In this document: positions 10,722 to 25,947 of the stretch, one piece after another | How the letters are laid out: every line of letters begins with the position of its first letter | Numbering within the stretch: the stretch's first letter is position 1 | DNA from: Weeksella massiliensis | GTDB taxonomy: Bacteria; Bacteroidota; Bacteroidia; Flavobacteriales; Weeksellaceae | Direction: 5' to 3' | DNA length: 64,000 nt | Assembly: GCA_000751595.1 (NCBI GenBank) | Contig: CCMH01000005.1 | Coordinates: 62,001-126,000 of the forward strand | Translations under genes and position numbers: made by a program | Notes under the pieces: generated by a model | Databases searched by the model: none | What the model was told of the DNA's origin: nothing | Seen by the model: the letters and a program-made list of their open reading frames with translations, nothing else

Positions 10722-12281
10722 ATGGCTAAAAAAGTACAAACTAAAAGTACAGAAGAAATCCTTTGGGATGCAGCAAATAAATTACGTGGTTCGATCGAAC
10801 CATCCGAATATAAACACGTGGTATTGAGTTTAATCTTCTTGAAATTTGCAAGTGATAAATTCATCAAACGAAGAGAAGAATTGATTGCAGAAGGTAAAGA
10901 AGCCTTCTTAGAAATACCCGAATTTTATCAGGCAGAAAATGTATTCTATTTACCTGAAGAATCGCGTTGGGAGTATATTATCGAAAATGCCAAACAAGAA
11001 GATATTACCCTAAAAGTAGATACCGCACTTAAAACCATAGAACGTACCAATAAATCCTTAGAAGGTGCGTTACCTGACAACTATTTCTCACGCTTAGGAT
11101 TAGATCAATCTAAGTTTTCGGCTTTGTTGGATACCATCAACAATATCGATACGCTTCGTGATGAATCTCAAGATATTGTAGGGCGTGTGTACGAATATTT
11201 CTTGAGCAAGTTTGCTATTGCCGAAGGAAAAGGGAAAGGAGAATTCTATACCCCAAAGTCGATTGTAAATCTGATTGCCGAAATGATAGAACCGTACAAA
11301 GGGAAAATCTATGACCCTTCTTGTGGTTCGGGTGGTATGTTTGTGCAATCGTTGAAGTTTATTGAAAAGCATCAAGGTAATAAAAAAGACATTTCGATTT
11401 ACGGACAAGAGTTGACCAATACCACGTTTAAGTTGGCGAAGATGAATTTGGCGATACGTGGAATTTCTGCCAATTTAGGAAACAAAGCAGCCGATACATT
11501 TCACGATGACCAGCACAAGGAATTGAAAGCCGATTACATCATGGCAAATCCTCCGTTTAACTTAAAAGATTGGCGTGCCGAAAACGAATTAACCGACGAT
11601 CCACGTTGGACAGGTTACGAAGTCCCTCCAAAATCCAATGCCAATTATGCGTGGATTTTGAACATGATTTCGAAACTTTCGCAAAACGGTGTCGCTGGTT
11701 TTATCTTAGCCAATGGCGCTCTTTCGGGTGGTGGTGAAGAATACAAAATCCGTAAACAAATTATAGAAAACGACTTGGTAGAAGCGATTGTGATTCTTCC
11801 ACAAAATATGTTTTATTCTACAACTATTAGTGTTTCTCTATGGATTATCAATCGTAATAAAAAAGAACGCACTGTTGAGGTAAACGATGGGGTTAAAAAC
11901 TATCGCAACCGCGAAGGAGAAGTGTTGTTTATGGACTTACGCCAAAAGGGTGAACCGTTTGAAAAGAAATTCATTCAGTTTTCTGAGCAATCAATAAATG
12001 ATATTGCATTAACCTATCATAATTGGCAACAGAAAGAGGTGGAAACTACTTATACGAACGAACCCGAATATTGTTACAGTGCAACCTTAGAAGAAATCCG
12101 TAAAAAAGATTATTCGTTGGTACCAAGCAAATACATTGAGTTTGTAAACCGTGACGAAAACATCGATTACGATACCCAAATGCAAGCGTTGCAAACCGAA
12201 TTGAAAGAGTTGTTTCAGCAAGAAGAAGCCTTGAAACAAGAAGTAGCAAACGTATTTAAATCGTTGGGATATGAGTTATAG
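10722..12281 (+). CDS. hsdM: Type I restriction-modification DNA methyltransferase subunit HsdM (system 1)
   Basis: The 519-residue length is usual for HsdM. The N-terminal helical HsdM_N domain contains LRGSIEPSEYKHVVLSLIFLKF. The N6-adenine methyltransferase domain has FYTPKSIV before motif I (DPSCGSGGMF, about 196-206) and the catalytic motif IV NPPF (about 275). It transfers methyl from S-adenosylmethionine to adenine at sites chosen by HsdS. The 3' end overlaps the hsdS start by 11 bp, implying translational coupling. Confidence 0.97.
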   Translation: MAKKVQTKSTEEILWDAANKLRGSIEPSEYKHVVLSLIFLKFASDKFIKRREELIAEGKEAFLEIPEFYQAENVFYLPEESRWEYIIENAKQEDITLKVDTALKTIERTNKSLEGALPDNYFSRLGLDQSKFSALLDTINNIDTLRDESQDIVGRVYEYFLSKFAIAEGKGKGEFYTPKSIVNLIAEMIEPYKGKIYDPSCGSGGMFVQSLKFIEKHQGNKKDISIYGQELTNTTFKLAKMNLAIRGISANLGNKAADTFHDDQHKELKADYIMANPPFNLKDWRAENELTDDPRWTGYEVPPKSNANYAWILNMISKLSQNGVAGFILANGALSGGGEEYKIRKQIIENDLVEAIVILPQNMFYSTTISVSLWIINRNKKERTVEVNDGVKNYRNREGEVLFMDLRQKGEPFEKKFIQFSEQSINDIALTYHNWQQKEVETTYTNEPEYCYSATLEEIRKKDYSLVPSKYIEFVNRDENIDYDTQMQALQTELKELFQQEEALKQEVANVFKSLGYEL

Positions 12282-13503
12282 AAAACTTAGTGAACTTGTA
12301 CATTTAGTTGATATTAAAAATACAGATTGCAAAGTAACTAGAGTCATTGGCGTAAGTATTACTAAAAACTTTATTCCTTCTGTAGCCAATCTAAACGGTG
12401 TTGATTTAACTAAATATAATTTAATTAAGAAAAATCAGTTTGCTTGTAAGTTAATGAGTGTAGGTCGTGACCTACAATTACCAATTGATTTATATAAGGA
12501 AGATGATTTAGCATTAATATCATCAGCTTATTATGTTTTTGAAGTAAAAGATGAAAATGAGATTCTACCAGACTATCTGAATATGTGGTTTAGACGGAAA
12601 GAAACCGATAGATGGGTAGGATATATTAGTGGTGGAGATGTACGTGGTGGTATTTCTTGGGATATGTTTTTAGAAATGGATGTAAATGTTCCATCCATCG
12701 AAAAACAACGCGAAATTGTCGCCCAATACCACGCTGTAGAAAACAAAGTAAAAGTCAACGAACAAATCTGCGAGAAGCTGGAAGCTACTGCTAAGACTTT
12801 ATACAAGCAATGGTTTGTAGATTTTGAATTTCCGAACGAAGAAGGACAACCATACAAATATTCTGGCGGTGCCATGGTGTACAACCAAGAATTAGAAAAG
12901 GAAATTCCTGAGGGTTGGGAGGTGAAGAGTTTGGGAGATTTTATAGAAATTACGAATGGGTATGCATTTACAAGTGACGATTTTACTGGTTTTAAAGCTT
13001 TACCTGTTTTGAAAATTTCAAATGTAAATGACTTTAAAGTTGATGTAGTTAATGTTCAGTATGCAGAGATTCATAAAAAGATTACTAAATATCAAATCAA
13101 TTATGGAGATATTTTAATAACCTTAACAGGTAGTCATAAAACACAAATAAACTCAGCAGTAGGAAAAGTGGCAATATATAATTATCCTTTTCCATCTTTA
13201 TTAAATCAACGACTTAGTAAAATAAACTCAAATTATCAGTCAGTTATTTACGAATTGGTAAGAGATAAAGGATTTCGTGAATATTTAATGAATGGAGCTA
13301 CTGGAAGTGCTAATCAAGCAAATATTTCGCCTGATTTAATCAAGTCTTATAAAGTTGTTTATCCTAACAAAAATAAGTTAGAGATATTAAATACAAAATT
13401 TAAAGATATTAGAACATTTATTTTAATTAAATCATTGACAAACCAAAAACTGACTCAACTTCAATCGTTATTGCTAAGTCGTTTGGCAACGTTGGAGGGG
13501 TAA
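12271..13503 (+). CDS. hsdS: Type I restriction-modification specificity subunit HsdS (system 1)
   Basis: The 410-residue protein has two target-recognition domains separated by a central conserved helix (IEKQREIVAQYHAVENKVKVNE, then LYKQWFVDFEFP) and a C-terminal helix (NQKLTQLQSLLLSRLATLEG). It sets the split recognition sequence of the HsdM/HsdR complex. The first domain begins directly at the N-terminus (YRKLSELVHLVDIKN) without the usual leader helix. Base composition is more AT-rich in the recognition domains than in hsdM, as is common. Confidence 0.93.
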   Translation: MSYRKLSELVHLVDIKNTDCKVTRVIGVSITKNFIPSVANLNGVDLTKYNLIKKNQFACKLMSVGRDLQLPIDLYKEDDLALISSAYYVFEVKDENEILPDYLNMWFRRKETDRWVGYISGGDVRGGISWDMFLEMDVNVPSIEKQREIVAQYHAVENKVKVNEQICEKLEATAKTLYKQWFVDFEFPNEEGQPYKYSGGAMVYNQELEKEIPEGWEVKSLGDFIEITNGYAFTSDDFTGFKALPVLKISNVNDFKVDVVNVQYAEIHKKITKYQINYGDILITLTGSHKTQINSAVGKVAIYNYPFPSLLNQRLSKINSNYQSVIYELVRDKGFREYLMNGATGSANQANISPDLIKSYKVVYPNKNKLEILNTKFKDIRTFILIKSLTNQKLTQLQSLLLSRLATLEG

Positions 13504-13549: not shown

Positions 13550-15604
13550 ATGCAAAACTCGAAATTACTATCTTCTGCTGCTCTTTTTAGTGAGCTTTAT
13601 AATAACTCTAAAGAAGATATTTTTGAAATAATCGGGGAGTTTATTGTGGGGGTTTGTATTCACAATTCTAAATTTAATTTCACAGTTACAGAATTAAAAC
13701 TGTTAATGGAAACCAACTACGGTTTTGATCTACCAGAAGCCGTCTTAAAAACAGTTTTAAACAATAGACTTTCAAAAAGACTTACCAGACAAGGGATAAA
13801 TTATTTTTTTGACTCAACAAATATTAGTCAAGAAGAAAAATTAAAATACAATTTTGATAATATTACTAGTGAACAAGATGAACTGTTTGATAATTTAATT
13901 CTATTCATTGAGGATAAAAAACAAAATAAATTAGATAGTGTAGAAATTAGAAAGGTTGAATCTAATTTTTATGAATTTTTATTAGATAATGGATTTTCAG
14001 AAACCTATTCGAATTATATAAGTGCTTTTATAATAGCAAATGAAGGTAATACAAGATTTCAAAATATATTAGAAAACATTAAAGAAGGTTTAATTCTTTA
14101 TGAAGGAATAAAATATTCACCTGACTTGAACGAATTAGGTGTATGGAAAAATAAATTAACAATTTATTTGGGTACTGAATATTTGTTTAACTCTCAAGGC
14201 TTAAATGGTGAGTTATTTAATCAAATTTTCAATGACTTTTTTAATTTGGTTCGAGAGATTAATTCTAAAAATAATAGTTCTGGAAAAATTATTGAATTAA
14301 AATATTTTTCAGAAACAAAAGAAGAAATTAATAAATTTTTCTCTACTGCTGAGTATATTAAATCGGGTAAGTTTAGCTTACGAGTTAGTAAACCAGCAAT
14401 GGTAAATATTGTTTCTAATGCTAAGGATGTTTCTGATATAGCATTAAGAAAAGCTTTATTTTTTCAAAATTTATCGAACTTAGGAATTCATGAGGATTCA
14501 TATGAATGCAATATTGACGATCTAAAATTATATAATTTAGAAGATCAACAAATTCTACAAGATTTAGAAAAATTAAGTATTGAAAATAATAGAGATTTTA
14601 AAGAGGATGATACTCGACTATTAATTAATATTTTCACTAAGATTAATTGCTTACGTAAAGGTAATTCAAATAATAGCTTTGAAAAATGTAGATATTTATA
14701 TTTGTCTGAAAATTCATTAGCTAGATTTTTAGGACATAATGAATTATTAAAAGTTAAGGAAGGTGATTTTACTTATTGTAAAGAAATGGACTTTTTAACT
14801 ACTAAATTTTGGTTTTATTTGAATAAAGGTTTTGGAGGTAAAAGTATTGAAATGCCTAAATCATTAGCATTAATTAATAAAGCCAAAATTATTATATCAT
14901 CTCATTTACAAAATTCAGTTTCTGAAAAATATGATGAATTCACACGAAAAGTTAAGAATAAGGAATTATCAGAAGAACAAATAAAGTTAATAAATCTTGA
15001 GTTAAAATCTAAAATTGCTAACCCAGAAAAAATAGCAGTTGACATAATTGATACTTCTTTAGAATTTTTGGAAAACGAAAATTACTTAGAAAAAGCATAT
15101 GATGAAATGATTTTAAAAGATCTAAAATTAAAAGAGCAAGAAGCAAAAATTTTAGCTTTTGAAGAGAAAGAACGTAAAGAATTAGAAGAAAAGGCACGTA
15201 AAGAACAAGAAGAACAAGAGCGTACCGAAAAATTAGCTTTAGATAAAAGAAAACATGATTGGGCTATACAGGAATTTGCAAAAGAGAGAAAAGAAAATAT
15301 TGATTATATAATATATTTTTCTAAATCACTAATTCCAGAATTGATAATCATACTAATAACTGTTGTGGTATTTAGAATTGATTATATAATAAATCTACTT
15401 AAAGGTCTATCTTTTAATACAACAACGGTATTTTGGATTTGTATAGTTTGTTTAATACTAATTGCTCAATTTATCAAAAGTAACTTTATTGATAAAGATA
15501 AAGTGAAAAAAGGATGGGAAATATTAAAAAGATTGAGATATTATTTATCTGAAAATTACAAAAATGAACGGTTAGATCATTTTGAAAACAATTATAAAGA
15601 TTAA
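13550..15604 (+). CDS. Unknown membrane-anchored protein inside the restriction operon
   Basis: I do not recognise this 684-residue protein. Residues 1-110 look like a small winged-helix-like helical domain (FTVTELKLLMETNYGF, LPEAVLKTVLNN). A large helical region follows to about 510. Residues about 520-585 are a highly charged Lys/Glu coiled coil, followed by two membrane segments (about 597-620 and 632-655) and a short basic tail. The gene lies between hsdS and the DUF6088/Fic pair in the same direction, 46 bp after hsdS, so it is probably co-transcribed with the modification genes. The layout suggests a membrane-tethered accessory of the defence locus, but no enzyme motif was seen. Base composition is very AT-rich. 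Confidence 0.75.
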   Translation: MQNSKLLSSAALFSELYNNSKEDIFEIIGEFIVGVCIHNSKFNFTVTELKLLMETNYGFDLPEAVLKTVLNNRLSKRLTRQGINYFFDSTNISQEEKLKYNFDNITSEQDELFDNLILFIEDKKQNKLDSVEIRKVESNFYEFLLDNGFSETYSNYISAFIIANEGNTRFQNILENIKEGLILYEGIKYSPDLNELGVWKNKLTIYLGTEYLFNSQGLNGELFNQIFNDFFNLVREINSKNNSSGKIIELKYFSETKEEINKFFSTAEYIKSGKFSLRVSKPAMVNIVSNAKDVSDIALRKALFFQNLSNLGIHEDSYECNIDDLKLYNLEDQQILQDLEKLSIENNRDFKEDDTRLLINIFTKINCLRKGNSNNSFEKCRYLYLSENSLARFLGHNELLKVKEGDFTYCKEMDFLTTKFWFYLNKGFGGKSIEMPKSLALINKAKIIISSHLQNSVSEKYDEFTRKVKNKELSEEQIKLINLELKSKIANPEKIAVDIIDTSLEFLENENYLEKAYDEMILKDLKLKEQEAKILAFEEKERKELEEKARKEQEEQERTEKLALDKRKHDWAIQEFAKERKENIDYIIYFSKSLIPELIIILITVVVFRIDYIINLLKGLSFNTTTVFWICIVCLILIAQFIKSNFIDKDKVKKGWEILKRLRYYLSENYKNERLDHFENNYKD

Positions 15605-15688
15605 ATTTTATTTATTAAAATAAATACACCGAATCACAATTAGTACAAGCTTTAATAAGTCATTCAAACGAACGAAAACAGAAATAAA

Positions 15689-15723
15689 TTTTGTAACAAA
15701 TTTTTACTAAATTTGTTACAAAA
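15689..15723. promoter_or_regulatory. Palindromic operator over the DUF6088/Fic promoter
   Basis: Perfect inverted repeat with 15-base arms, TTTTGTAACAAATTT (15689-15703) and its complement (15709-15723), five bases apart. The right arm contains TAAATTTG (15708-15715), a -7 box, so a bound repressor would block transcription of the gene at 15741. The half-sites TTGTAACA and TGTTACAA reappear in the array upstream of hsdR. Autoregulation by the DUF6088 protein is inferred from position. Confidence 0.7.
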
Positions 15724-15740
15724 TAAAAAGATAACACTAA

Positions 15741-16343
15741 GTGAAATCCTCTAAAAATCAAATAGAAACAAAGATTTTAAAATCATCATTAGGCGAAATA
15801 TTTTTCGCTGAAGATTTCTATACGTATGGTTCAGCTGGTAATATCCGTTTAACGCTTTTTCGTTTGGTGAATGAAGGCATATTAGAACGCTTGGCTCAAG
15901 GCATTTATCTAAAACCCAAAAGAGATCCGTTGTTAGGTACTCTTTATCCTACTACGGAAGAAATAGCCAAGCAAATAGCACAACGCGACAAAGCACGTAT
16001 TGCACCAACGGGTGTATTCGCTTTGTATTTGTTGGGGCTTACCACACAAGTTCCTCTAAAAGCGGTGTATCTGTCCGATGGTTCGCAACGAGAAATTAAA
16101 ATAGGAAACCGTACCATTCAATTTAAAAAAACGGTTCCTAAAAGTTTTGCCATAAAAGATGAATTGTTGCATTTGATCGTGCAAGCATTTAAAGAGGTGG
16201 GCCAAAATAAAGTAACCGAAGATTTTATAGAAAAAATAAAGCCTTCTGTAGTGCAGCTCGATTCTCAAGTGGTCCAAAAGCAAGTAAAATATGCACCGGT
16301 TTGGATTCAGAAAGTAATAAAAAATTTAATGAAACATGAGTAA
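15741..16343 (+). CDS. DUF6088 family protein, AbiEi-like antitoxin/regulator
   Basis: The 200-residue protein starts at GTG 15741, the first possible start after the operator. Residues 1-70 form an AbiEi-type winged-helix domain (FYTYGSAGNIRLTLFRLVNEGILERLAQGIYLKP). The rest matches the DUF6088/AbiEi C-terminal pattern (APTGVFALYLLGLTTQVPLKAVYLSDGSQREIKIGNR). AbiEi proteins are antitoxins that bind inverted repeats at their own promoter and usually precede an AbiEii nucleotidyltransferase. Here the next gene, overlapping by 8 bp, is instead a Fic AMP-transferase. A palindrome sits over its promoter. DNA binding to the hsdR array is my inference. Confidence 0.82.
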   Translation: MKSSKNQIETKILKSSLGEIFFAEDFYTYGSAGNIRLTLFRLVNEGILERLAQGIYLKPKRDPLLGTLYPTTEEIAKQIAQRDKARIAPTGVFALYLLGLTTQVPLKAVYLSDGSQREIKIGNRTIQFKKTVPKSFAIKDELLHLIVQAFKEVGQNKVTEDFIEKIKPSVVQLDSQVVQKQVKYAPVWIQKVIKNLMKHE

Positions 16344-17436
16344 CTATACTATTCCTACACTGCCATTAACAATTGATTTGGAAACTAAAAAAGTTTTCAA
16401 AATGGTGATTGCAGCCAATAAAGCACTTGCGGAATTAAATGGTGTATCAGAAACAATACCTAATGAACAGATTATATTAAACACGCTTTCGTTACAAGAA
16501 GCGAAAGATAGTTCGGCTATAGAAAATATTATCACTACCCATGATGAACTTTTTAGTAGTGATTCTTTAGCCAAACAATTTACAAGCGTGGCTGCTAAAG
16601 AGGTGTATAATTACTCTAGCTCTTTAAAGTTTGGATTTGAATTAGTTAGGAAAACGGGTTTGTTAACCTCTAATAATATAATTGAAATTCACTCTGTTTT
16701 AGAGGAAACTAGGACTGGATTTAGAAAAGTTCCTGGAACATCTCTTAAAAATGATCAAACCCAAGAAATAATATACACCCCTCCACAAAGTTTTCGAGAG
16801 ATTAACGAACACATGAATAATTTGGAAACATTTATTAATGATTCTGAATTATCCGATTTGGATCCTTTAGTAAAACTTGCTATCATTCATCATCAGTTTG
16901 AAAGTATTCATCCCTTTTACGATGGTAATGGAAGGACAGGAAGAATTATCAATATTTTGTATATGGTAAAGGAAAATCTACTCCATCTTCCTATATTATA
17001 TTTAAGTCGATATATTAATCAAAATAAGGCAGAATATTATCGTTTACTTCAACATACAAGAGATACTAATGAATGGGAAGATTGGATTCTTTTTATGCTT
17101 GACGCTATTGAAAAAACCTCTATCCAGACTATTCAGATTATTAAGGGAATAAAAGCATTGATGCAACAGTATAAAGAGAAAATCCGTTCCGAATTACCTA
17201 AGATTTATTCGCAAGACTTAATCAATAATTTATTTAAGCATCCTTATACTAAAATTGAATTTGTTGTAACTGATTTAAATGTATCAAGACAAACAGCTTC
17301 TAGATATTTAGAGCAATTAGTAGAACTAGATTTACTACATCTTCAAAGAATAGGAAAAGAAAATTTTTATATTAATGTAGCATTATACAAATTTCTAAAT
17401 GAAGCGACACAATTACATAAATTAAATGAGGATTAA
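16336..17436 (+). CDS. Fic family protein, likely AMP-transferase
   Basis: The 366-residue protein has a Fic_N region with an N-terminal inhibitory helix motif SSAIEN (class II Fic arrangement), then the Fic domain with the active-site motif HPFYDGNGRTGR, and a C-terminal winged helix (about 290-350, FVVTDLNVSRQTASRYLEQL). Fic enzymes attach AMP to hydroxyl groups of target proteins; the inhibitory Glu keeps it off until released. The ATG overlaps the DUF6088 stop, indicating coupled translation and possibly an antitoxin/toxin pair. The target is unknown. Confidence 0.93.
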   Translation: MSNYTIPTLPLTIDLETKKVFKMVIAANKALAELNGVSETIPNEQIILNTLSLQEAKDSSAIENIITTHDELFSSDSLAKQFTSVAAKEVYNYSSSLKFGFELVRKTGLLTSNNIIEIHSVLEETRTGFRKVPGTSLKNDQTQEIIYTPPQSFREINEHMNNLETFINDSELSDLDPLVKLAIIHHQFESIHPFYDGNGRTGRIINILYMVKENLLHLPILYLSRYINQNKAEYYRLLQHTRDTNEWEDWILFMLDAIEKTSIQTIQIIKGIKALMQQYKEKIRSELPKIYSQDLINNLFKHPYTKIEFVVTDLNVSRQTASRYLEQLVELDLLHLQRIGKENFYINVALYKFLNEATQLHKLNED

Positions 17437-17461
17437 TCACTTTATTTAGGTTGCTTTAAAA

Positions 17462-17612
17462 TTGCAACATGTTTTTTATTATGTTACAAAAAGTCAAAAA
17501 TTGTAACATGTTATTTTTTCATGTTACAAAAAGCAAAAAATTGTAACACGTTATTTTTTCATGTTACAAAAAGTCGAAAAATGTAACACGTTCTACTATT
17601 TCAATTACAAAA
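17462..17612. repeat. Four tandem ~40-bp palindromic units upstream of hsdR
   Basis: Units start at about 17462, 17501, 17541 and 17581 (period 39-40). Each contains an inverted repeat of TTGTAACATG and CATGTTACAA 12-14 bases apart, separated from the next by an A-rich stretch. Unit 1 has one change in the left half (TTGCAACA); unit 4 is the most decayed. The half-sites are the same as those of the operator at 15689-15723. The array fills most of the gap between fic and hsdR. It looks like a cooperative operator array, not a CRISPR, because there are no unique spacers. Confidence 0.85.
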
Positions 17613-17640
17613 GCAAAAAACACAACTTGAAAAAGTTATT

Positions 17641-20600
17641 ATGAAATACAGCGAATCACAATTAGAACAAGCTTTTATTAGCCTTTTGGAAACAGAAGGC
17701 TATACCTATATTGATGGAAAACAGTTGCAAAGAAGTTCAAATCAAGAAGTATTGATTAAGGAAGATTTGCGCGCGTTTTTACAAAATCGTTATGAAGATT
17801 TAGAAGAAATAGAATTGGAAAGCATTACTAATGAATTGGCGTTTCAATCGACTTCGAATCTGTACGAATCTAATAAATACATTTGTAAATTATTGGCCGA
17901 TGGATTTATTTTTAAACGTAACAACCCACAAAAAAAGGATTTACATATACGATATATCGATTGTGATTCGGTAGACAATAACACATTTAAAATTGTCAAT
18001 CAACTCGAAATTCAAGGAATCGAATTGCGAATTCCTGATTTGATTTTATACATCAATGGAATTCCTGTCGTGGTTTTTGAATTTAAAACCGCTATTGAAG
18101 AGGAAATTACCATTCATGATGCGTACAAGCAATTAACGACACGTTACAAAAGAGATATCCCCGAACTATTGAAATACAATGTGTTTTGTGTGATTAGTGA
18201 TGGGGTGAATAACAAAGCCGGAACAGTATTTTCTCCTTACGAATTTTACTACGGTTGGAATAAAATTACTGGAGTAGAAAAGAAAGCCTTAACAGGAATT
18301 GAAACTACGACTTCTTTGGTGCAAGGCATGTTGAATCAAACACGATTGGTTGATATTATTCATCATTTTGTATTGTTTCCTGACAATTCTAAAAGAGAAG
18401 ATAAAATTCTGTGTCGCTATCCGCAATATTATGCGGCCAATAAGTTGTATCAAAACATCTTAGTCCACCGTAAACCACAAGGCGATGGTAAAGGAGGAAC
18501 GTATTTTGGCGCAACAGGTTGTGGGAAAAGTTATACCATGTTGTATCTTTCTCGTTTGTTGATGCGTTCCACCGATTTTGCAAGTCCAACGATTATTATC
18601 ATTTCCGATCGTACCGATTTAGACGATCAATTGTCTAAAGATTTTACCAATGCAAAAGATTTTATTGGCGATGAAACCATTATCAATATTGAATCGAGAG
18701 CCGATTTGCGCGCACGTTTGCGTGGTAGAGAAAGTGGTGGTGTGTTTTTAACTACGGTTCAGAAATTTGCCGAAGATGCTGAAATCTTATCCAATCGCAC
18801 CAATATTATTTGTATTTCGGATGAAGCGCATCGATCGCAAGTCAATTTGGATCTAAAAGTGACTATTGATCACGAGAAAAAAACGGTAAACAAATCGTAT
18901 GGTTTTGCTAAATATTTGCACGATTCGTTACCGAATGCAACTTATGTAGGATTTACAGGAACCCCTATCGACAAAACCTTAGAAGTGTTTGGAGATGTGG
19001 TGGATCAATATACGATGTTTGAATCGGTAAATGATGAAATTACAGTTCGTTTGGTTTATGAAGGAAGAGCAGCTAAAGTCAATTTAGATTACAATAAAGT
19101 TCAAGAAATTGAACAATATTACGAAAATGCAGTAGCCGAAGGCGCTTCTGAATATCATGTAGAAGCCAGTCAGAAAGCGATTGCAAAAATGGAAGTGGTA
19201 TTAGGAGATACCGACCGAATCAAAGCTATTGCACAAGATTTTATTGATCATTACGAAAAGCGTATCGCAGAAAAAGCTACGGTAGCAGGAAAAGTGATGT
19301 TTGTTTGTGCTTCTCGCACCATTGCATATAAATTGTACCAAGAAATTTTAGCGTTGCGTCCGGAATGGGGCGAATTGCAATTGGCGGAAGATTTATCAGA
19401 TAAAGAACGCAAGGAAATCAAACCTATTGAACGTGTGAAAATGGTAATGACACGTAATAAGGATGATGAAGAAAAATTATGGCATTTATTAGGCAATAAA
19501 GATGATCGAAAAGAATTGGATCGACAGTTTAAACAAATCAAATCCAACTTTAAAATTGCGATTGTCGTAGATATGTGGTTGACAGGATTCGATGTTCCCT
19601 TCTTAGATACCATTTATATTGATAAACCGTTACAAACGCACAATTTAATACAAACCATTTCTCGTGTCAATCGTAAATACGAAGGGAAACATCGCGGTTT
19701 GGTTGTGGATTATATCGGAATCAAAAAGAACTTGAACAAAGCGTTGGGCATGTTTAATAACCAAACGGCCGATGATGATTTTGAAGATTTAAAACAAGCT
19801 GAAATACTGGTTCGAGATCAAATGGATTTGTTACGTCAGTATTTCCATACGTTTGATGCCAAAGGATATTATGAAGGTAATCCTGTGGAACGTTTGCAAT
19901 GTTTACAAAAAGCATCAGAATTTGTGTTATTGACGGAAGAATCAGAAAAATTCTTTGTGAATGTAACCAAAAAATTGAAATCGTCTTACAACCTGGTGAG
20001 TGGTTCAGAGCTGTTTACTTACGAAGAAGTAGATGAAATACATTTCTATTTTGCAGTAAAATCTATTGTAGTAAAATTGACCAAAGGTGAAGCTCCAGAT
20101 ACTGAACAAATGAACGCTAAAGTAGCTAAAATGGTGGAAGAAGCGATTGTTTCTGAAGGTGTGGAAGAGATCTTTAAATTGGATGATAATAAAGCCAATG
20201 CCATTGATTTGTTTAACGACAAGTTTATCGAAAAAATATCCAATTTAGAATTACCAAATACCAAAATCAAAATTTTAGAACGCTTATTGAAGCAGACCAT
20301 CAACGATTTTAAAAAGATTAATAAGGTAAAAGGTCAAGACTTCTCAGAGCGTTTGCAAAGTATCGTTAATAGATACAACGAAAGAAGCGAAGATGAGGCT
20401 TTAAAGCAAGAAATTTCAGATGTAACAGCCGAACAGATGTTGGATTTGATTATCATGCTTCGTACAGAAATGGCTTCATTTGAAGACTTGGGTATTGATT
20501 ACGAAGAAAAAGCCTTCTACGATATTTTAGATGTAATCTGCAAACAATACGGTTTTGAGTTTGATAAAGAAAAGCTTTTAGAGTTGGCTAAAGAAATCAA

Positions 20601-20778
20601 AAAGATTGTAGATAATACAGCGAAATATCCAGATTGGAGTGACCGGGATGATATCAAGGCGCAATTGAAAATGGATATTATTGTGAAATTGCATCAATAC
20701 GGATATCCACCAATTACACAAGATGATGTGTACAAGAATGTATTAGAACAAGCAGAAAATTTTAAGAAGAATAGATGA
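17641..20778 (+). CDS. hsdR: Type I restriction endonuclease/translocase subunit HsdR (system 1)
   Basis: The 1045-residue protein has the usual order: an N-terminal PD-(D/E)xK nuclease (D in IPDLILYINGIPVVVFEFK, with E and K of EFK, about 131-149), then a superfamily 2 translocase with Walker A GATGCGKSYT (about 292), DEAH (about 393), GFTGTPI and the motif VI stretch ISRVNRKYEGKHRGLVVDY, and a C-terminal helical domain. It cuts unmodified DNA after ATP-driven translocation together with HsdM and HsdS. It is separated from hsdS by three genes and has its own operator-rich upstream region, so it is probably controlled apart from the methylase. It overlaps mcrB by 4 bp (ATGA). Confidence 0.97.
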   Translation: MKYSESQLEQAFISLLETEGYTYIDGKQLQRSSNQEVLIKEDLRAFLQNRYEDLEEIELESITNELAFQSTSNLYESNKYICKLLADGFIFKRNNPQKKDLHIRYIDCDSVDNNTFKIVNQLEIQGIELRIPDLILYINGIPVVVFEFKTAIEEEITIHDAYKQLTTRYKRDIPELLKYNVFCVISDGVNNKAGTVFSPYEFYYGWNKITGVEKKALTGIETTTSLVQGMLNQTRLVDIIHHFVLFPDNSKREDKILCRYPQYYAANKLYQNILVHRKPQGDGKGGTYFGATGCGKSYTMLYLSRLLMRSTDFASPTIIIISDRTDLDDQLSKDFTNAKDFIGDETIINIESRADLRARLRGRESGGVFLTTVQKFAEDAEILSNRTNIICISDEAHRSQVNLDLKVTIDHEKKTVNKSYGFAKYLHDSLPNATYVGFTGTPIDKTLEVFGDVVDQYTMFESVNDEITVRLVYEGRAAKVNLDYNKVQEIEQYYENAVAEGASEYHVEASQKAIAKMEVVLGDTDRIKAIAQDFIDHYEKRIAEKATVAGKVMFVCASRTIAYKLYQEILALRPEWGELQLAEDLSDKERKEIKPIERVKMVMTRNKDDEEKLWHLLGNKDDRKELDRQFKQIKSNFKIAIVVDMWLTGFDVPFLDTIYIDKPLQTHNLIQTISRVNRKYEGKHRGLVVDYIGIKKNLNKALGMFNNQTADDDFEDLKQAEILVRDQMDLLRQYFHTFDAKGYYEGNPVERLQCLQKASEFVLLTEESEKFFVNVTKKLKSSYNLVSGSELFTYEEVDEIHFYFAVKSIVVKLTKGEAPDTEQMNAKVAKMVEEAIVSEGVEEIFKLDDNKANAIDLFNDKFIEKISNLELPNTKIKILERLLKQTINDFKKINKVKGQDFSERLQSIVNRYNERSEDEALKQEISDVTAEQMLDLIIMLRTEMASFEDLGIDYEEKAFYDILDVICKQYGFEFDKEKLLELAKEIKKIVDNTAKYPDWSDRDDIKAQLKMDIIVKLHQYGYPPITQDDVYKNVLEQAENFKKNR

Positions 20779-23006
20779 TGAATTTAGATATTAAAAAACG
20801 TATAGATTCTATAGCACATCCTGAAGCTATTAAAGTATTTTTTAATTTTATCAATAAGTTTATTAAAGACAATTCTATCTCTGAAGATGATGAAAGATTT
20901 GTATTAAATGTAAGAAATGATTACAGAAAGAGGTTTTCTGTTAATTTGAATAGTCGACTGATTCTTTATGTAAAAGATGGATATGAGTTTGGTTTTATGA
21001 TCAATCAAGAAGACTGGAGTAATTTTAAAAATATTCCTTATCTAAAAAAAGAATCGTTTGAAAAACACGACCCTAATGCATTTCTTGTTTCATTTTCATT
21101 TGATAATCTAATTGATAATATAGATTTATTTACAAAATATTGGTTAAAATGCTGTAAAGAATATCTACCTAGCCAAGAAAAATCACAATACCGAAAATAT
21201 AATATTAAAGAGTTATATAAAATTGCTATGGATGATGAATTATTAAATGAATATTTAACTATAGATATAAAAAATATGACATTAAAGTTTTGTCAAATTA
21301 TTAATGAATTAAAAGTTTATTTATTAGGCGAAAATAATATTCTTAATAATTTTAAAATTTCTGAAGTAAAAGATAATTCTAGATGGGTATGGATAACAGA
21401 TAATCAAAATGGAATTGGAGATACGGTTGCTCATTATGAGATTATTACTAGAAAGAATAAAGTTTATACCGAAATACATTTTGAAGGTGACCAAAAATCA
21501 AAAGATTTTTTTTATAATCAATTAGATAAATTACCTGAAAATATTGAATGGTTCAAATGGCAAAATTCAAAAAGTATAAGATATAATACAGCTTTTGATA
21601 TAAATGATGAAAATTTAGTAGTAAATTTAGCTAAATCTTTACTCTATTTAGAAGAAAATATTGGTAATAAAGTCAGGGAAGTTAAAAATAAGCTCAGTTC
21701 ATCCTATATGTTAAATAAACATTTATCCATGAATAAAATACCTCTCAACCAAATCTTATACGGCCCTCCAGGTACAGGTAAAACGTATCATACAATTAAT
21801 AAGGCAATAGCTATTGCTAATCCTAAATTTGATTTGAAACAAGATAGAAGTTTAATTAAATCAGAGTATGAAAGATTGGTTAATGAAGGTCAAATTGTTT
21901 TTACAACGTTTCATCAAAGTATGACCTATGAAGATTTTATTGAAGGAATAAAGCCTTTAAAACCTGAGGCAGATGATGAATTTGTAAAATATGATGTTCA
22001 AAATGGAGTTTTTAAGACTATTGCTATTGAAACATCTTCAGAAGAAATCTCTAATGACAATTTCGAAAATGTTTATAATAAATTATTAAATGATATTGAC
22101 AATTCTGAATCTAAAAGTTTAGTTTTAGAAACGTTAGTTTATTCAAAAGAATTTACGATTTATAAAAATTCTAAAAATAATCTGAGATTCCATGCAAATA
22201 CAGAAAAAGCTAATGAAGGAGTAATAAGAAAAGAAATACTTGAACATTATTTGAGAACTGGAGAAACTCTTGATTGGTCATCATATACTAAAGCAGTTGC
22301 TCAATATATTTTAGATAATTATAATTATAATAAAAGTTATCAGAAACAAGATTCAAAAAATCATGTTTTAATTATCGACGAAATCAACCGTGGAAATGTT
22401 TCTCAGATTTTTGGGGAATTAATAACCTTGATCGAAGAAGATAAGCGTTTAGGAAATAAGGAAGCTTTAGAAGTGACTTTACCTTACAGTAAAGAAAAAT
22501 TTGGCGTACCATCAAACTTATACATCATTGGAACAATGAATACCGCAGACCGAAGCGTGGAAGCTTTGGATACTGCTTTAAGACGTCGTTTTGTTTTTGA
22601 AGAAATGCCTCCAAAATATGATCTAGAGGAATTACAGCAAGAATTATTTGGTTTTAAAGCAGGGGAGATTCTTAAAACGATTAATCAACGTATCGAAAAG
22701 TTATTGGATCGTGATCATCAAATTGGACATGCTTATTTCATTAATAAAAATGAATCAACGATTATCGACTCATTTTACAAAAACATTATTCCTTTGCTAC
22801 AAGAATATTTCTTTGGTGATTACGGTAAAATTGGGTTGGTTTTAGGTAGTGGTTTTATTAAGAAAATAGAGCAAAATTCTGTGTTTGCTAATTTTGAACA
22901 TTTGGATTATTCTCAATTCGAAGAAAAAGAATCATACGAAATTATCAACCATAAAAAAGATCGTACAGGTTTTTCTGAAGCAGTACAATTACTAATGAAT
23001 CGTTAG
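20775..23006 (+). CDS. mcrB: McrB-like AAA+ GTPase of a type IV restriction system
   Basis: The 743-residue protein has an N-terminal region of about 320 residues (a DUF-like DNA-binding part that I cannot classify) and a C-terminal McrB AAA+ domain. Motifs are Walker A GPPGTGKTYHT (about 330), Walker B IDEINRGNVSQIFGEL (about 533) and the McrB signature MNTADRSVEALDTALRRRF (about 591). McrB hydrolyses GTP and recognises modified cytosine in DNA. The ATG is inside the end of hsdR, so it is translated from the same mRNA; mcrC follows after one base. Confidence 0.93.
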   Translation: MMNLDIKKRIDSIAHPEAIKVFFNFINKFIKDNSISEDDERFVLNVRNDYRKRFSVNLNSRLILYVKDGYEFGFMINQEDWSNFKNIPYLKKESFEKHDPNAFLVSFSFDNLIDNIDLFTKYWLKCCKEYLPSQEKSQYRKYNIKELYKIAMDDELLNEYLTIDIKNMTLKFCQIINELKVYLLGENNILNNFKISEVKDNSRWVWITDNQNGIGDTVAHYEIITRKNKVYTEIHFEGDQKSKDFFYNQLDKLPENIEWFKWQNSKSIRYNTAFDINDENLVVNLAKSLLYLEENIGNKVREVKNKLSSSYMLNKHLSMNKIPLNQILYGPPGTGKTYHTINKAIAIANPKFDLKQDRSLIKSEYERLVNEGQIVFTTFHQSMTYEDFIEGIKPLKPEADDEFVKYDVQNGVFKTIAIETSSEEISNDNFENVYNKLLNDIDNSESKSLVLETLVYSKEFTIYKNSKNNLRFHANTEKANEGVIRKEILEHYLRTGETLDWSSYTKAVAQYILDNYNYNKSYQKQDSKNHVLIIDEINRGNVSQIFGELITLIEEDKRLGNKEALEVTLPYSKEKFGVPSNLYIIGTMNTADRSVEALDTALRRRFVFEEMPPKYDLEELQQELFGFKAGEILKTINQRIEKLLDRDHQIGHAYFINKNESTIIDSFYKNIIPLLQEYFFGDYGKIGLVLGSGFIKKIEQNSVFANFEHLDYSQFEEKESYEIINHKKDRTGFSEAVQLLMNR

Positions 23007-23007
23007 T

Positions 23008-24246
23008 ATGCAAAGTTTAGCAAATCTTATCACTGTTTTTGAGCATGAAAAGTTAATCTTTAATCTAAAAGATGAAAAAGAAAAGCAATTACACGATGCT
23101 TTAGAAATTTATCATGGAAATCAAACACCATTTTTTAAATTGATTAGGAATGGTGTGCAATTCAATGAACATGTCGGAATTATTCAAATAGGTAAAACAA
23201 CGATTGAAGTTTTACCAAAAGCGGATAAGTCGGGGGAAGATAAATGGCGTAAGTTATTAGTTGGAATGATAAAAACAGTCTGGGGATTTGATGTAAAATC
23301 AACTGGATCGAGTTCGCTTAAGTTAAAATCAAATTCAATCCTAGAACTCTATTTTGAATTGTTTTTATCTGAAGTAGAATACCTATTGCACAGAGGATTG
23401 ATTAAAAGATACCGTAAAACTGAAGGTAATCAAAATTCATTAAAAGGCGCTTTACAATTCTCAAAACATATTTCGCAGAACTTGGTTCACAAAGAACGAT
23501 TCTATGTAAAATATACACAATATTCGAACGAACATGCAATACACGAAATCTTATTCAAAACAATAAAATTGTTAGCTCAAATCAATTCAAATCCGTTATT
23601 AAAGGGTAGAATAGGGGCTTTGTGTTTGAACTTTCCTGAAATGAAAGAGATAAAAGTGAATGCTTCTACTTTTGATAAATTGGTTTTCGATCGAAAAAAT
23701 CAGCAGTATCAAACAGCTTTAGAAATTGCTAAACTATTGTTGCTGAATTATCATCCTGATATTTCAAAAGGTAGAAATAATGTTTTGGCTTTAATGTTTG
23801 ACATGAATAGTTTATGGGAGCAATTTATTTTGGTGACTTTAAAAAGAAAGCTGAAATCTCATCATGTTTTCTCACAAGTAACCAAGAATTTTTGGAAACC
23901 TAATTCAGGTTATTCATCTAAAATGCGACCTGATATTATCCTAAGTTGTAGAGATACTGGAGAAAACATTGTTTTAGATACGAAATGGAAAAATCTAAAC
24001 GGTTACAACCCTTCACCGGACGACCTTAGACAAATGTATGTTTACCATCGATTTTATCAAGCTAAAAAAGTAGCTCTTGTTTATCCTTCAGACAAACATT
24101 CTATTCAAAAGGGAAATTATTACAGTTCAGAATTACACAGTCAAATGTCCGTTAAAGAATGTAGCATAATGCAAATTGCAACAAATTCAGATATTAAGAT
24201 TTGGCAAGATAACATAGTTCTTCAAATAAAAGAATTTTTAGTTTAA
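23008..24246 (+). CDS. mcrC: McrC-like nuclease subunit of a type IV restriction system
   Basis: The 412-residue protein has the McrC pattern: an N-terminal region with GIIQIGKTTIEVLPK, a central helical region, and a C-terminal PD-(D/E)xK nuclease with D in KMRPDIILS and the D-x-K of VLDTKWKNL. McrC joins McrB hexamers and cuts DNA bearing methylated or otherwise modified bases. It is the last gene of the hsdR-mcrB-mcrC unit. Confidence 0.92.
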   Translation: MQSLANLITVFEHEKLIFNLKDEKEKQLHDALEIYHGNQTPFFKLIRNGVQFNEHVGIIQIGKTTIEVLPKADKSGEDKWRKLLVGMIKTVWGFDVKSTGSSSLKLKSNSILELYFELFLSEVEYLLHRGLIKRYRKTEGNQNSLKGALQFSKHISQNLVHKERFYVKYTQYSNEHAIHEILFKTIKLLAQINSNPLLKGRIGALCLNFPEMKEIKVNASTFDKLVFDRKNQQYQTALEIAKLLLLNYHPDISKGRNNVLALMFDMNSLWEQFILVTLKRKLKSHHVFSQVTKNFWKPNSGYSSKMRPDIILSCRDTGENIVLDTKWKNLNGYNPSPDDLRQMYVYHRFYQAKKVALVYPSDKHSIQKGNYYSSELHSQMSVKECSIMQIATNSDIKIWQDNIVLQIKEFLV

Positions 24247-24314: not shown

Positions 24315-25289
24315 TTATTTTACTTTCTTCAGTCGAAGCTGATAACTTTGCAAATAATTACGTTTTAATTTTTCTGATAAATAAGATTTTTCAATTAAAT
24401 CTACCACTTGATCTTCTTTCGCAGTTAAATTTTGAAAAACTTTTATAATTGATTTTTCTGTCATTTCTGCATTCTCTCCCAATACCATCAATTGATCAAT
24501 AACTTTTCCTTTCGAGATAGATTTCGGTAATAATCCATCTTTTAAAGCAAAGTCAGTATCCTCAATATGAATTTTGGTATTTAGTAGATCATAAGTTGGA
24601 CTTAATTTAAAATCGCCTTGTTGAGTTTCTATTAAAGAAAAATTCTTCAGATGTGCATCTCCATTAGAAAACAGGTAATTGAAAACGATTAATGCAAATA
24701 ACTTAGGCGCTTCTACTTTCCAAGCTGGAACATATTTTTTCAAGGCATCAAATAACTCCAAATAATTTCCTTCGTATTTATATTGTTCGCCATTTGTTGC
24801 AGGTGATTTTCCTAATAAAGAAGCAAAATCCTCTACGGCTAATTTTTCACCATTTTCATTGTAATCAAAACGCTTCGTAAGATAAGCTGGACTTCCATCT
24901 TCAAAAAAAACTAACGCATTTTCTGCTGTTTCTATTTTAAAAATTTGTTTCGCGATTTGCATCGTTAAATGTTCATTTGCTGGTGCAAATTCACTATTTT
25001 TAGGTAAATCAGAAATTGGTTTCAGAATATATTGACCACTTTCGTTTTCATTGGTTAATCTTAGTTCTTTTCCATCAAGAATTAATGAATATTTTTCTTG
25101 AAATCCTGAGATTGAAATATGTGTTTGATTTTGGTTAAAACTACTTTTATCTTTACGATCAGTTGGCGAAGTGTAATTTAAAATTGGATCGACTTTTTTT
25201 CCATTAAACATCTTCTTTACTACAGTAGAACTGTAGGTATTAAAATTTTCTTTTAAAGAACCTGGACAATTTTTTATTTCAAACTTCAT
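24315..25289 (-). CDS. HipT-like serine/threonine kinase toxin (HipA C-terminal domain)
   Basis: The 324-residue protein matches the HipA kinase fold without the N-terminal subdomain. It has a glycine/serine loop in HISISGFQEKYSL, the ATP-binding Lys in YILKP, the catalytic loop FNYLFSNGDAHLKNFS and the metal site SPTYDLLNT. HipA-type kinases phosphorylate aminoacyl-tRNA synthetases and stop translation; HipT of E. coli targets TrpS. It is the third gene of a hipB-hipS-hipT operon, starting one base after the end of the small HipA-N gene. The split makes this a HipBST-type module and not a two-gene hipBA. Confidence 0.88.
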   Translation of the reverse strand: MKFEIKNCPGSLKENFNTYSSTVVKKMFNGKKVDPILNYTSPTDRKDKSSFNQNQTHISISGFQEKYSLILDGKELRLTNENESGQYILKPISDLPKNSEFAPANEHLTMQIAKQIFKIETAENALVFFEDGSPAYLTKRFDYNENGEKLAVEDFASLLGKSPATNGEQYKYEGNYLELFDALKKYVPAWKVEAPKLFALIVFNYLFSNGDAHLKNFSLIETQQGDFKLSPTYDLLNTKIHIEDTDFALKDGLLPKSISKGKVIDQLMVLGENAEMTEKSIIKVFQNLTAKEDQVVDLIEKSYLSEKLKRNYLQSYQLRLKKVK

Positions 25290-25290
25290 G

Positions 25291-25611
25291 CTAAACTCTT
25301 TCTATTGTTACTGCACCCACTGTATCTACTTTCGATACTTGTAATAATATTCCAAAAGCATCATCTTCATCAATCTTATATGTTTTACAAATCATACGTT
25401 TGTTTACCCCTTCTGGTAATAAATGATAGAAAAAAGGAAATAAAGCTTCTGATTTGAATTCAATTTGACTTTTAGGCAGCGTTAAACTTATCGACGGTTT
25501 TGAATCATCAGACAACCAATCTTCATTATAGATAAAATGAAAATTACCATTATCCAATTGCGTTAAAATCCCAGCCCTTTCTCCTTTGTATAAAATTTGA
25601 GCAATTCTCAT
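25291..25611 (-). CDS. HipS-like protein (HipA N-terminal subdomain)
   Basis: The 106-residue protein equals the N-terminal couple_hipA domain alone (YKGERAGILTQLDNGNFHFIYNEDWL, then LPEGVNKRMICK and DDAFGILLQVSKVDTVGAVTI). In tripartite HipBST systems the separate small subunit acts as antitoxin to the kinase. Its ATG overlaps the hipB stop as ATGA, indicating coupled translation. Confidence 0.85.
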   Translation of the reverse strand: MRIAQILYKGERAGILTQLDNGNFHFIYNEDWLSDDSKPSISLTLPKSQIEFKSEALFPFFYHLLPEGVNKRMICKTYKIDEDDAFGILLQVSKVDTVGAVTIERV

Positions 25612-25817
25612 GATTCGATAGATTTAACCTCTAATTTAATTTCTAATCCTAAGGCATCACACAACTTTTGAAGCGTTTCAAACGTTGGATTACCTTTACC
25701 ACTTTCAAATTGTTTTAATGTACGCAAACCAACACCTGAAATCTCAGCTAATGTTTCTTGTGATATCGCTAAAACCTTACGTCTTTCTTTGATTTGATTA
25801 ATTATTGATAGTGTCAT
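25608..25817 (-). CDS. HipB-like helix-turn-helix regulator
   Basis: The start is taken as ATG 25817 (MTLSIINQIKERRKVL); a GTG at 25826 would add three residues and lies in operator 1. The 69-residue product is a Cro/C1-type HTH (AISQETLAEISGVGLRTLKQFESGKGNPTFETLQKLCDALG). It probably represses its own operon through the three 16-bp sites upstream. In HipBST systems HipB is mainly the DNA-binding partner. Confidence 0.88.
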   Translation of the reverse strand: MTLSIINQIKERRKVLAISQETLAEISGVGLRTLKQFESGKGNPTFETLQKLCDALGLEIKLEVKSIES

Positions 25818-25947
25818 ATAATGCACTTTTAATGTGAATTTAGAAAGAAATTAGATACAAAACAAGAAAAGTGTGATAAATTGCACTTTTTGAAGAATAA
25901 TATTACTTTTTAATAAAGAATAAAAATAATAGTGCGACATATTGCAC
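25811..25947. promoter_or_regulatory. Three operators of the hip operon
   Basis: GTGTCATATAATGCAC (25811-25826, over the hipB start), GTGTGATAAATTGCAC (25871-25886) and GTGCGACATATTGCAC (25932-25947). They share GTGN9-10GCAC symmetry and are spaced 60 and 61 bp, close to six helical turns each, so a repressor could bind all on one face of the DNA. Confidence 0.75.

Follow-up and report, generated by a model that had tools for sequence, protein, structure and literature searches.

An AbiEi-like DUF6088 gene and a candidate array of its operator half-sites in the hsdS–hsdR slot of a type I restriction locus

Introduction

Autoregulation by AbiEi proteins is known for S. agalactiae AbiEi (PMC3985639) and for M. 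tuberculosis Rv2827c, whose promoter bears multiple sets of repeats (PMC7319586). The DUF6088 protein described here shares with the AbiE type IV systems an N-terminal winged helix-turn-helix (HTH), a place as the first gene of its operon, inverted repeats over its own promoter, to which binding is predicted in our case, and, at other loci, AbiEii as its customary partner. Unlike AbiE, the present locus has a second, candidate operator array 1.8 kb downstream, before the restriction gene hsdR, and the partner is a Fic protein. Its half-sites have an 8-bp core and lie 15 bp apart, whereas the AbiE repeats are 23 bp long with 3 or 13 bp between them.

Only lately, in 2025, was a dedicated repressor shown to control type I restriction (PMC12255303): RptR, which represses a type I island carrying DarTG2 between hsdS and hsdR. 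This is the nearest described circuit: both loci combine a repressor, here putative, and repeated operators with a type I system, and both have a toxin-antitoxin pair between hsdS and hsdR. RptR is a small dimeric protein of another family, encoded upstream of the whole island, and its binding sites at the island promoter are TAGCTA direct repeats. In the present locus, by contrast, an AbiEi relative belongs to the cargo and the array is located internally, ahead of hsdR. Type II controller (C) proteins are HTH activator-repressors. The DUF6088 protein would resemble them in being small, binding DNA, regulating itself, and perhaps setting the expression of restriction genes, but no homology to them was found and its locus has no sign of activation.

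As far as the literature searched shows, a cargo AbiEi relative with a candidate distal operator array before hsdR, the pairing of an AbiEi relative with Fic, and a testable recognition code are new. The search returned no paper on DUF6088 function, none on an AbiEi-Fic pairing, and no earlier description of a DUF6088 recognition code.

Results

We analyzed a 64,000-nucleotide stretch of a Weeksella massiliensis contig (CCMH01000005.1, positions 62,001 to 126,000), referred to as the window. A toxin-antitoxin-type cargo pair, DUF6088-Fic, is placed there between hsdS and hsdR, a slot whose cargo varies among relatives, and the open reading frames of hsdR, DUF6088, and Fic are uninterrupted. 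The features of the locus are as follows.

10722–12281, plus strand: hsdM, type I methyltransferase (PF02384, 1e-104; HsdM_N)
12271–13503, plus strand: hsdS, specificity subunit (PF01420, 1e-14)
13550–15604, plus strand: 684-aa cargo ORF in the hsdS–hsdR slot, with zero matches in Pfam, PADLOC, or NCBIfam
15619–15668, plus strand: hsdR-start relic that agrees with the family consensus at 40/50 nt, runs for 22 codons to a stop, and lies 14 nt past the 684-aa ORF
15688–15724, no strand: predicted palindromic operator of DUF6088, with half-sites at 15691–15698 and 15714–15721; contains a −7 box; the half-site covaries with the recognition helix
15741–16343, plus strand: DUF6088, AbiEi-like winged-HTH putative repressor with a GTG start (PF19570, 1e-62; PADLOC AbiEi, 1e-64); helix residues 32–44, with L37 and F40 as specificity residues according to the model and covariation
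16336–17436, plus strand: SoFic-like Fic protein (PF02661, PF13784, PF21248; PADLOC SoFic, 8e-120) with an intact HPFYDGNGR motif and SxxxEN at residue 59
17462–17610, no strand: operator-like array with three clear 40-bp units (17482–17601); exact half-sites at 17482(−), 17501(+), 17522(−), 17541(+), and 17562(−); sites with one mismatch at 17462 and 17581; edge degenerate at ~17603
17611–17640, plus strand: hsdR leader with a short inverted repeat, AACTTGAAAAAGTT, variants of which also occur in some array-less relatives (L063, L078)
17641–20778, plus strand: hsdR, intact type I restriction subunit of 1045 aa (PADLOC REase_I, E=0; TIGR00348)

The C-terminal portion of the 684-aa ORF seems, by eye, to be membrane-spanning. 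The stretches 20775–24246 and 24315–25826 hold McrB-like AAA and McrC genes directly 3′ of hsdR and, beyond them on the minus strand, a HipA-like ORF pair and an HTH gene, judged by their resemblance to genes of L126 and L125. Another HsdM-like methylase, of 831 aa (26917–29412), makes it probable that a second type I system is present in the window.

A sequence-only reading of this DNA had called the DUF6088 protein AbiEi-like, and the identification is supported: the PADLOC AbiEi model matches it, its customary neighbor is the AbiEii nucleotidyltransferase (the adjacent gene in most of the 60-odd loci read), and the best fold match of its AlphaFold model is AbiEi 6y8q, a weak match to a model that is poor in its middle. 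Curated AbiEi models match it weakly (Pfam AbiEi_4, 0.03; NCBIfam TAA_AbiEi, 21 bits where the cut-off is 150), and we therefore assign it to a separate branch. The model has an N-terminal winged-HTH DNA-binding domain (H4–14, E20–22, H23–29, H32–44, E49–52, E55–57; pLDDT about 80–89), in which the recognition helix, 32–44, includes residues 37 and 40. No solved relative was retrieved by sequence search; viral contigs contained no DUF6088 relatives, and plasmids and phages only ones of <60% identity. In the window and in L003 (Chryseobacterium MFBS3-17), the AbiEii (DUF1814) operon partner is absent and the SoFic-like Fic protein takes its place. SxxxEN is the self-inhibition motif of SoFic-type Fic proteins, and because the motif is present at residue 59, this Fic may be independent of DUF6088 as antitoxin.

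The DUF6088 promoter is covered by a palindrome of the form TTGTAACA-N15-TGTTACAA, with TTGTAACA at 15691–15698 and TGTTACAA at 15714–15721. The sequence-only reading had described it as perfect, with 15-bp arms, and as overlapping the −7 box; it is perfect and does overlap the box, but the arms (15688–15703 and 15709–15724) are 16 bp each around a 5-bp center. The right arm holds TAAATTTG (15708–15715), which conforms to the Bacteroidota −7 consensus TAnnTTTG and is its sole match across both promoter regions scanned. The −33/−7 spacing in this promoter class is ~19, and the TTG closest upstream of the −7 box is only 14 nt away, so that the −33 element is uncertain. A palindrome occupies the equivalent position upstream of most DUF6088 genes examined. 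Some distant DUF6088 promoters (L019, L030, L018, L021, L031) seem to have two inverted-repeat pairs, like the Rv2827c promoter.

The promoter half-site varies among Bacteroidota DUF6088 loci (TTGTAACA, TTGTCACA, TTGTCGCA, TTGTCCCA, and others), and the variation tracks recognition-helix residues 37 and 40. With L, V, I, or T at residue 37, base 5 of the half-site is A, and with K or Q it is C; at residue 40, E goes with G at base 6, Q, L, I, or Y with C, and any other residue with A. With half-sites scored by eye in both sets, this code fits 33/33 training loci and is correct for 23 of 27 loci from the wider class. The latter are held out only insofar as the first set alone had revealed the pattern, the code having been formulated after both sets were viewed. 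A few of the 27 duplicate earlier sequences (L206 = L027, L225 = L010), and the assignments of I and Y at residue 40 and of M at residue 37 are absent from the first set. None of 100,000 permutations reached 23 correct, the maximum being 18. Half-site classes switch at least 12 times on a tree, and close tree neighbors with unlike half-sites obey the code, as do L029 (TTGTAACA) versus L028 and L213 (GTCACA). Because helix residues 37 and 40 covary with the operator across the class, DUF6088 very probably reads its promoter half-site. Such a class-wide code would make DUF6088 operators predictable and their distal targets searchable from sequence alone. One genome (G310) carries two DUF6088 genes (L196 and L202) with unlike half-sites, TTGTCACA and TTGTAACA, and helices that fit the code; the pair matches the expectation for insulated paralogues.

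The array occupies most of the 204-bp gap (17437–17640) that precedes hsdR, and its half-sites are inverted copies of the DUF6088 promoter half-site. Of the four tandem 40-bp units that the sequence-only reading had counted, three are clear copies, 85 to 88% alike, and the remainder is partial or degenerate; the half-site that it took to be common to palindrome and array is indeed present there in five exact copies. Spacing differs: half-sites are 15 bp apart in the promoter versus 13 and 11 bp in the array. The window contains TTGTAACA 9 times versus 3.5 expected, a count reached in 0/100 shuffles, and in composition-matched random sequence a gap of 204 bp has P(≥3) = 0.00035 against the five exact sites found. 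Because the array units are tandem copies, we use as the fair value the chance that an unrelated array would bear this 8-mer, which we estimate from the shuffle and random-sequence counts at about 0.002 to 0.02.

In the 2.56-Mb genome, TTGTAACA-N13-15-TGTTACAA occurs 3 times, always at this locus, and only 6/320 family genomes contain it. The exact array pattern is present in 4/320, all with the TTGTAACA promoter palindrome as well; three of these four represent one linked cassette, and the sole independent case is G355, where the array is 215 kb from the DUF6088 gene. At order level outside the family, the operator pattern was found in six genomes versus five for the reversed control, one of the six occurrences being a DUF6088 promoter (G291). 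When the type I-slot arrays are compared with that of G355 (locus L124), half-site columns differ by 0.062 per site and the rest by 0.384; among the L124 units themselves, the values are 0.042 and 0.236. Array half-sites thus change ~6 times more slowly than spacers. Since the specific half-site of DUF6088 stands there under constraint, the prediction that DUF6088 recognizes and binds the array is supported. Among the 60-odd loci read, no DUF6088 locus of other specificity had an array of its own half-site. We rejected the idea that the array came from a mobile element or phage: plasmids gave no match to it, and in the DNA examined 0 of the 31 viral-contig matches to the N13 pattern were accompanied by homologues of the Hsd, DUF6088, or Fic proteins encoded in the window.

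The order DUF6088-Fic-array-hsdR is found in the window and in L003. In L125, DUF6088-AbiEii-array is followed by an hsdR-start relic, HipBA, and then hsdR; in L008, the same three elements and relic have no hsdR after them, and the DUF6088 is of TTGTCACA type next to an array of TTGTAACA. L005 lacks a toxin: its DUF6088-array is followed by an hsdR-start relic, after which come a Y1-type (RAYT-like) transposase gene and hsdR, and in L004 and L096 the array has shrunk to single-site relics. Two arrays have neither hsdR nor a local DUF6088. In L124 the order is methylase-ResIII-Fic-array-Sp-DndD-DndD-like-HerA (Pfam); in L167 (genome G411), Fic and a decaying array with 2/5 half-sites intact are followed by the same small ORF. 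The sequence-only reading had counted arrays without DUF6088 as contrary evidence, which applies in part: G355 has its matching DUF6088 at a distance, whereas G411 has only distant DUF6088 genes. At least six loci in which DUF6088-AbiEii is joined to hsdR (L127, L107, L111, L014, L015, L016) are array-less. Among hsdR relatives with no DUF6088 in view, 0/23 have an array, which rules it out as a general hsdR leader. From this distribution over DUF6088, hsdR, and Fic loci, the array is an optional element of a small cassette group, usually flanked by a toxin gene on one side and a restriction gene on the other. The hybrid L124/L167 locus, which in L124 (700–10106) comprises an N6/N4 methylase, a ResIII helicase, Fic, the 40-bp array, the Sp-DndD small protein, a DndD-like ATPase, and a HerA-like protein, is possibly an undescribed restriction system with Fic cargo.

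The consensus scan detected no −7 box on either strand of 17437–17640, although a weak promoter could escape it. The distance from the cargo stop to the hsdR start has a median of 8 nt in relatives versus 204 nt in the window.

Discussion

The sequence-only reading proposed that the DUF6088 protein represses an hsdR promoter until the DNA is methylated. The gap has no recognizable −7 box and relatives begin hsdR a few nucleotides past the upstream gene, so that repression of such a promoter is unsupported; the array is also no fixed part of hsdR control, given the array-less DUF6088-AbiEii-hsdR loci and the arrays of L124 and L167. That hsdR might be held off until methylation is complete is an idea drawn purely from analogy. 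We favor a different course of events. What appears to be a mobile AbiEi-type repressor cassette sits in the hsdS–hsdR cargo slot of a type I operon. Its DUF6088 protein is predicted, with strong support, to repress its own promoter by binding the palindrome that covers the −7 box there, and, with support from the shared half-site, to bind also the array that separates the Fic gene from hsdR. Because no hsdR promoter is visible and hsdR of relatives directly continues the cargo gene, read-through is the more likely target of the array: it would control transcription arriving from upstream, as a roadblock or a variable brake, so that hsdR output would track the DUF6088 level. Autorepression may be reinforced by looping between the array and the promoter, which lie 1.8 kb apart. 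Taken whole, this combination of autorepression, array binding, and read-through control has, in our judgment, an even chance of being right; the mismatch of DUF6088 and array in L008, the unequal half-site spacing, the array-less loci, and the arrays placed after Fic where both hsdR and a local DUF6088 are missing all count against it.

The location of the array, always 3′ of the toxin gene (Fic or AbiEii) or of DUF6088 itself in toxin-less cases, would equally suit an auxiliary operator or titration element, bound by DUF6088 to tune its own promoter through looping or sequestration while hsdR is a mere neighbor. Arrays with no hsdR nearby fit this as well. We nevertheless consider it rather unlikely, as type I-slot arrays always immediately precede an hsdR start, intact or relic, the arrays of L124 and L167 precede a small ORF that in L124 heads an Sp-DndD/DndD-like/HerA restriction-like module, and neither of these loci has a DUF6088 promoter in cis. 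Less probable again is that tandem operator copies ride passively with the cassette and leave hsdR unaffected. Confinement of arrays to a small cassette group, the single sites left in L004 and L096, the L008 mismatch, and decay in G411 are what a relic would produce, but half-sites are kept while spacers change, both within and between arrays, and the decayed arrays are the ones displaced from hsdR or left with no matching DUF6088.

The array could instead be bound by another protein, such as Fic through its C-terminal winged-helix domain (PF21248), or by an unlinked regulator. In the family genomes searched, the array or what is left of it stands at the 3′ end of each of the four closest Fic homologues (76–100%), two of which have no local DUF6088. 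Arrays also follow AbiEii or DUF6088 where Fic is absent (L125, L008, L005), however, and the half-site is identical to the DUF6088 operator, a coincidence of the low chance estimated above; we regard this reading as quite improbable. We give least credence to an action of the array as RNA, whether as hairpins, a terminator, or a ToxI-kind antitoxin RNA. Inverted half-sites could pair as 8–10-bp stems and the tandem 40-bp unit has a superficial likeness to repeats of the ToxI type, but the fold z-score is only −1.8, no terminator-like site was found in the array, and no ToxN-like partner is annotated beside it.

A further reading, possible but doubtful, is that an AbiEi-type antitoxin serves as a restriction governor: a constrained array at the end of the toxin gene would set transcription into hsdR or into an Sp-DndD/DndD-like/HerA module, and loss of the antitoxin would raise toxin and restriction together. 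If so, a toxin-antitoxin cargo repressor would set restriction output through a portable operator array, beyond mere co-location.

The slot also appears to carry a record of its own turnover. The gene preceding hsdR differs in nearly all relatives, and the start of hsdR stays ATGAAATACACCGAATC or close to it. The opening ~50 nt of hsdR recur as copies inside the slot in the window (15619–15668), L004 (6668), L005 (5879 and 6708), L099, L102, L103, L121, L125 (three besides the real start: 5741, 6555, and 8444), and L008 (964 and 2778). They score 33 to 50 of 50, or 30 to 31 for the L008 pair, and the best score in 300 kb of simulated sequence is 32/50. Most are open frames of 20 to 25 codons that start −4 to +14 nt after a cargo stop or just past the array. 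These copies look like footprints left by successive insertions of cargo at the hsdR start, and such relics would record the stacking of defense cargo in the slot. The hsdS–hsdR slot was proposed earlier as a defense hotspot, and the available portion of that paper (PMC12255303) makes no mention of hsdR-start footprints. The copy in L102 is closer to another hsdR allele than to the resident hsdR. A Y1-type transposase gene with GGGCGAATTGCAATTCGCCC repeats recurs in the slot beside hsdR-start relics in L004, L005, L096, and L125 (5917–6558), and in L096 it is tandemly duplicated.
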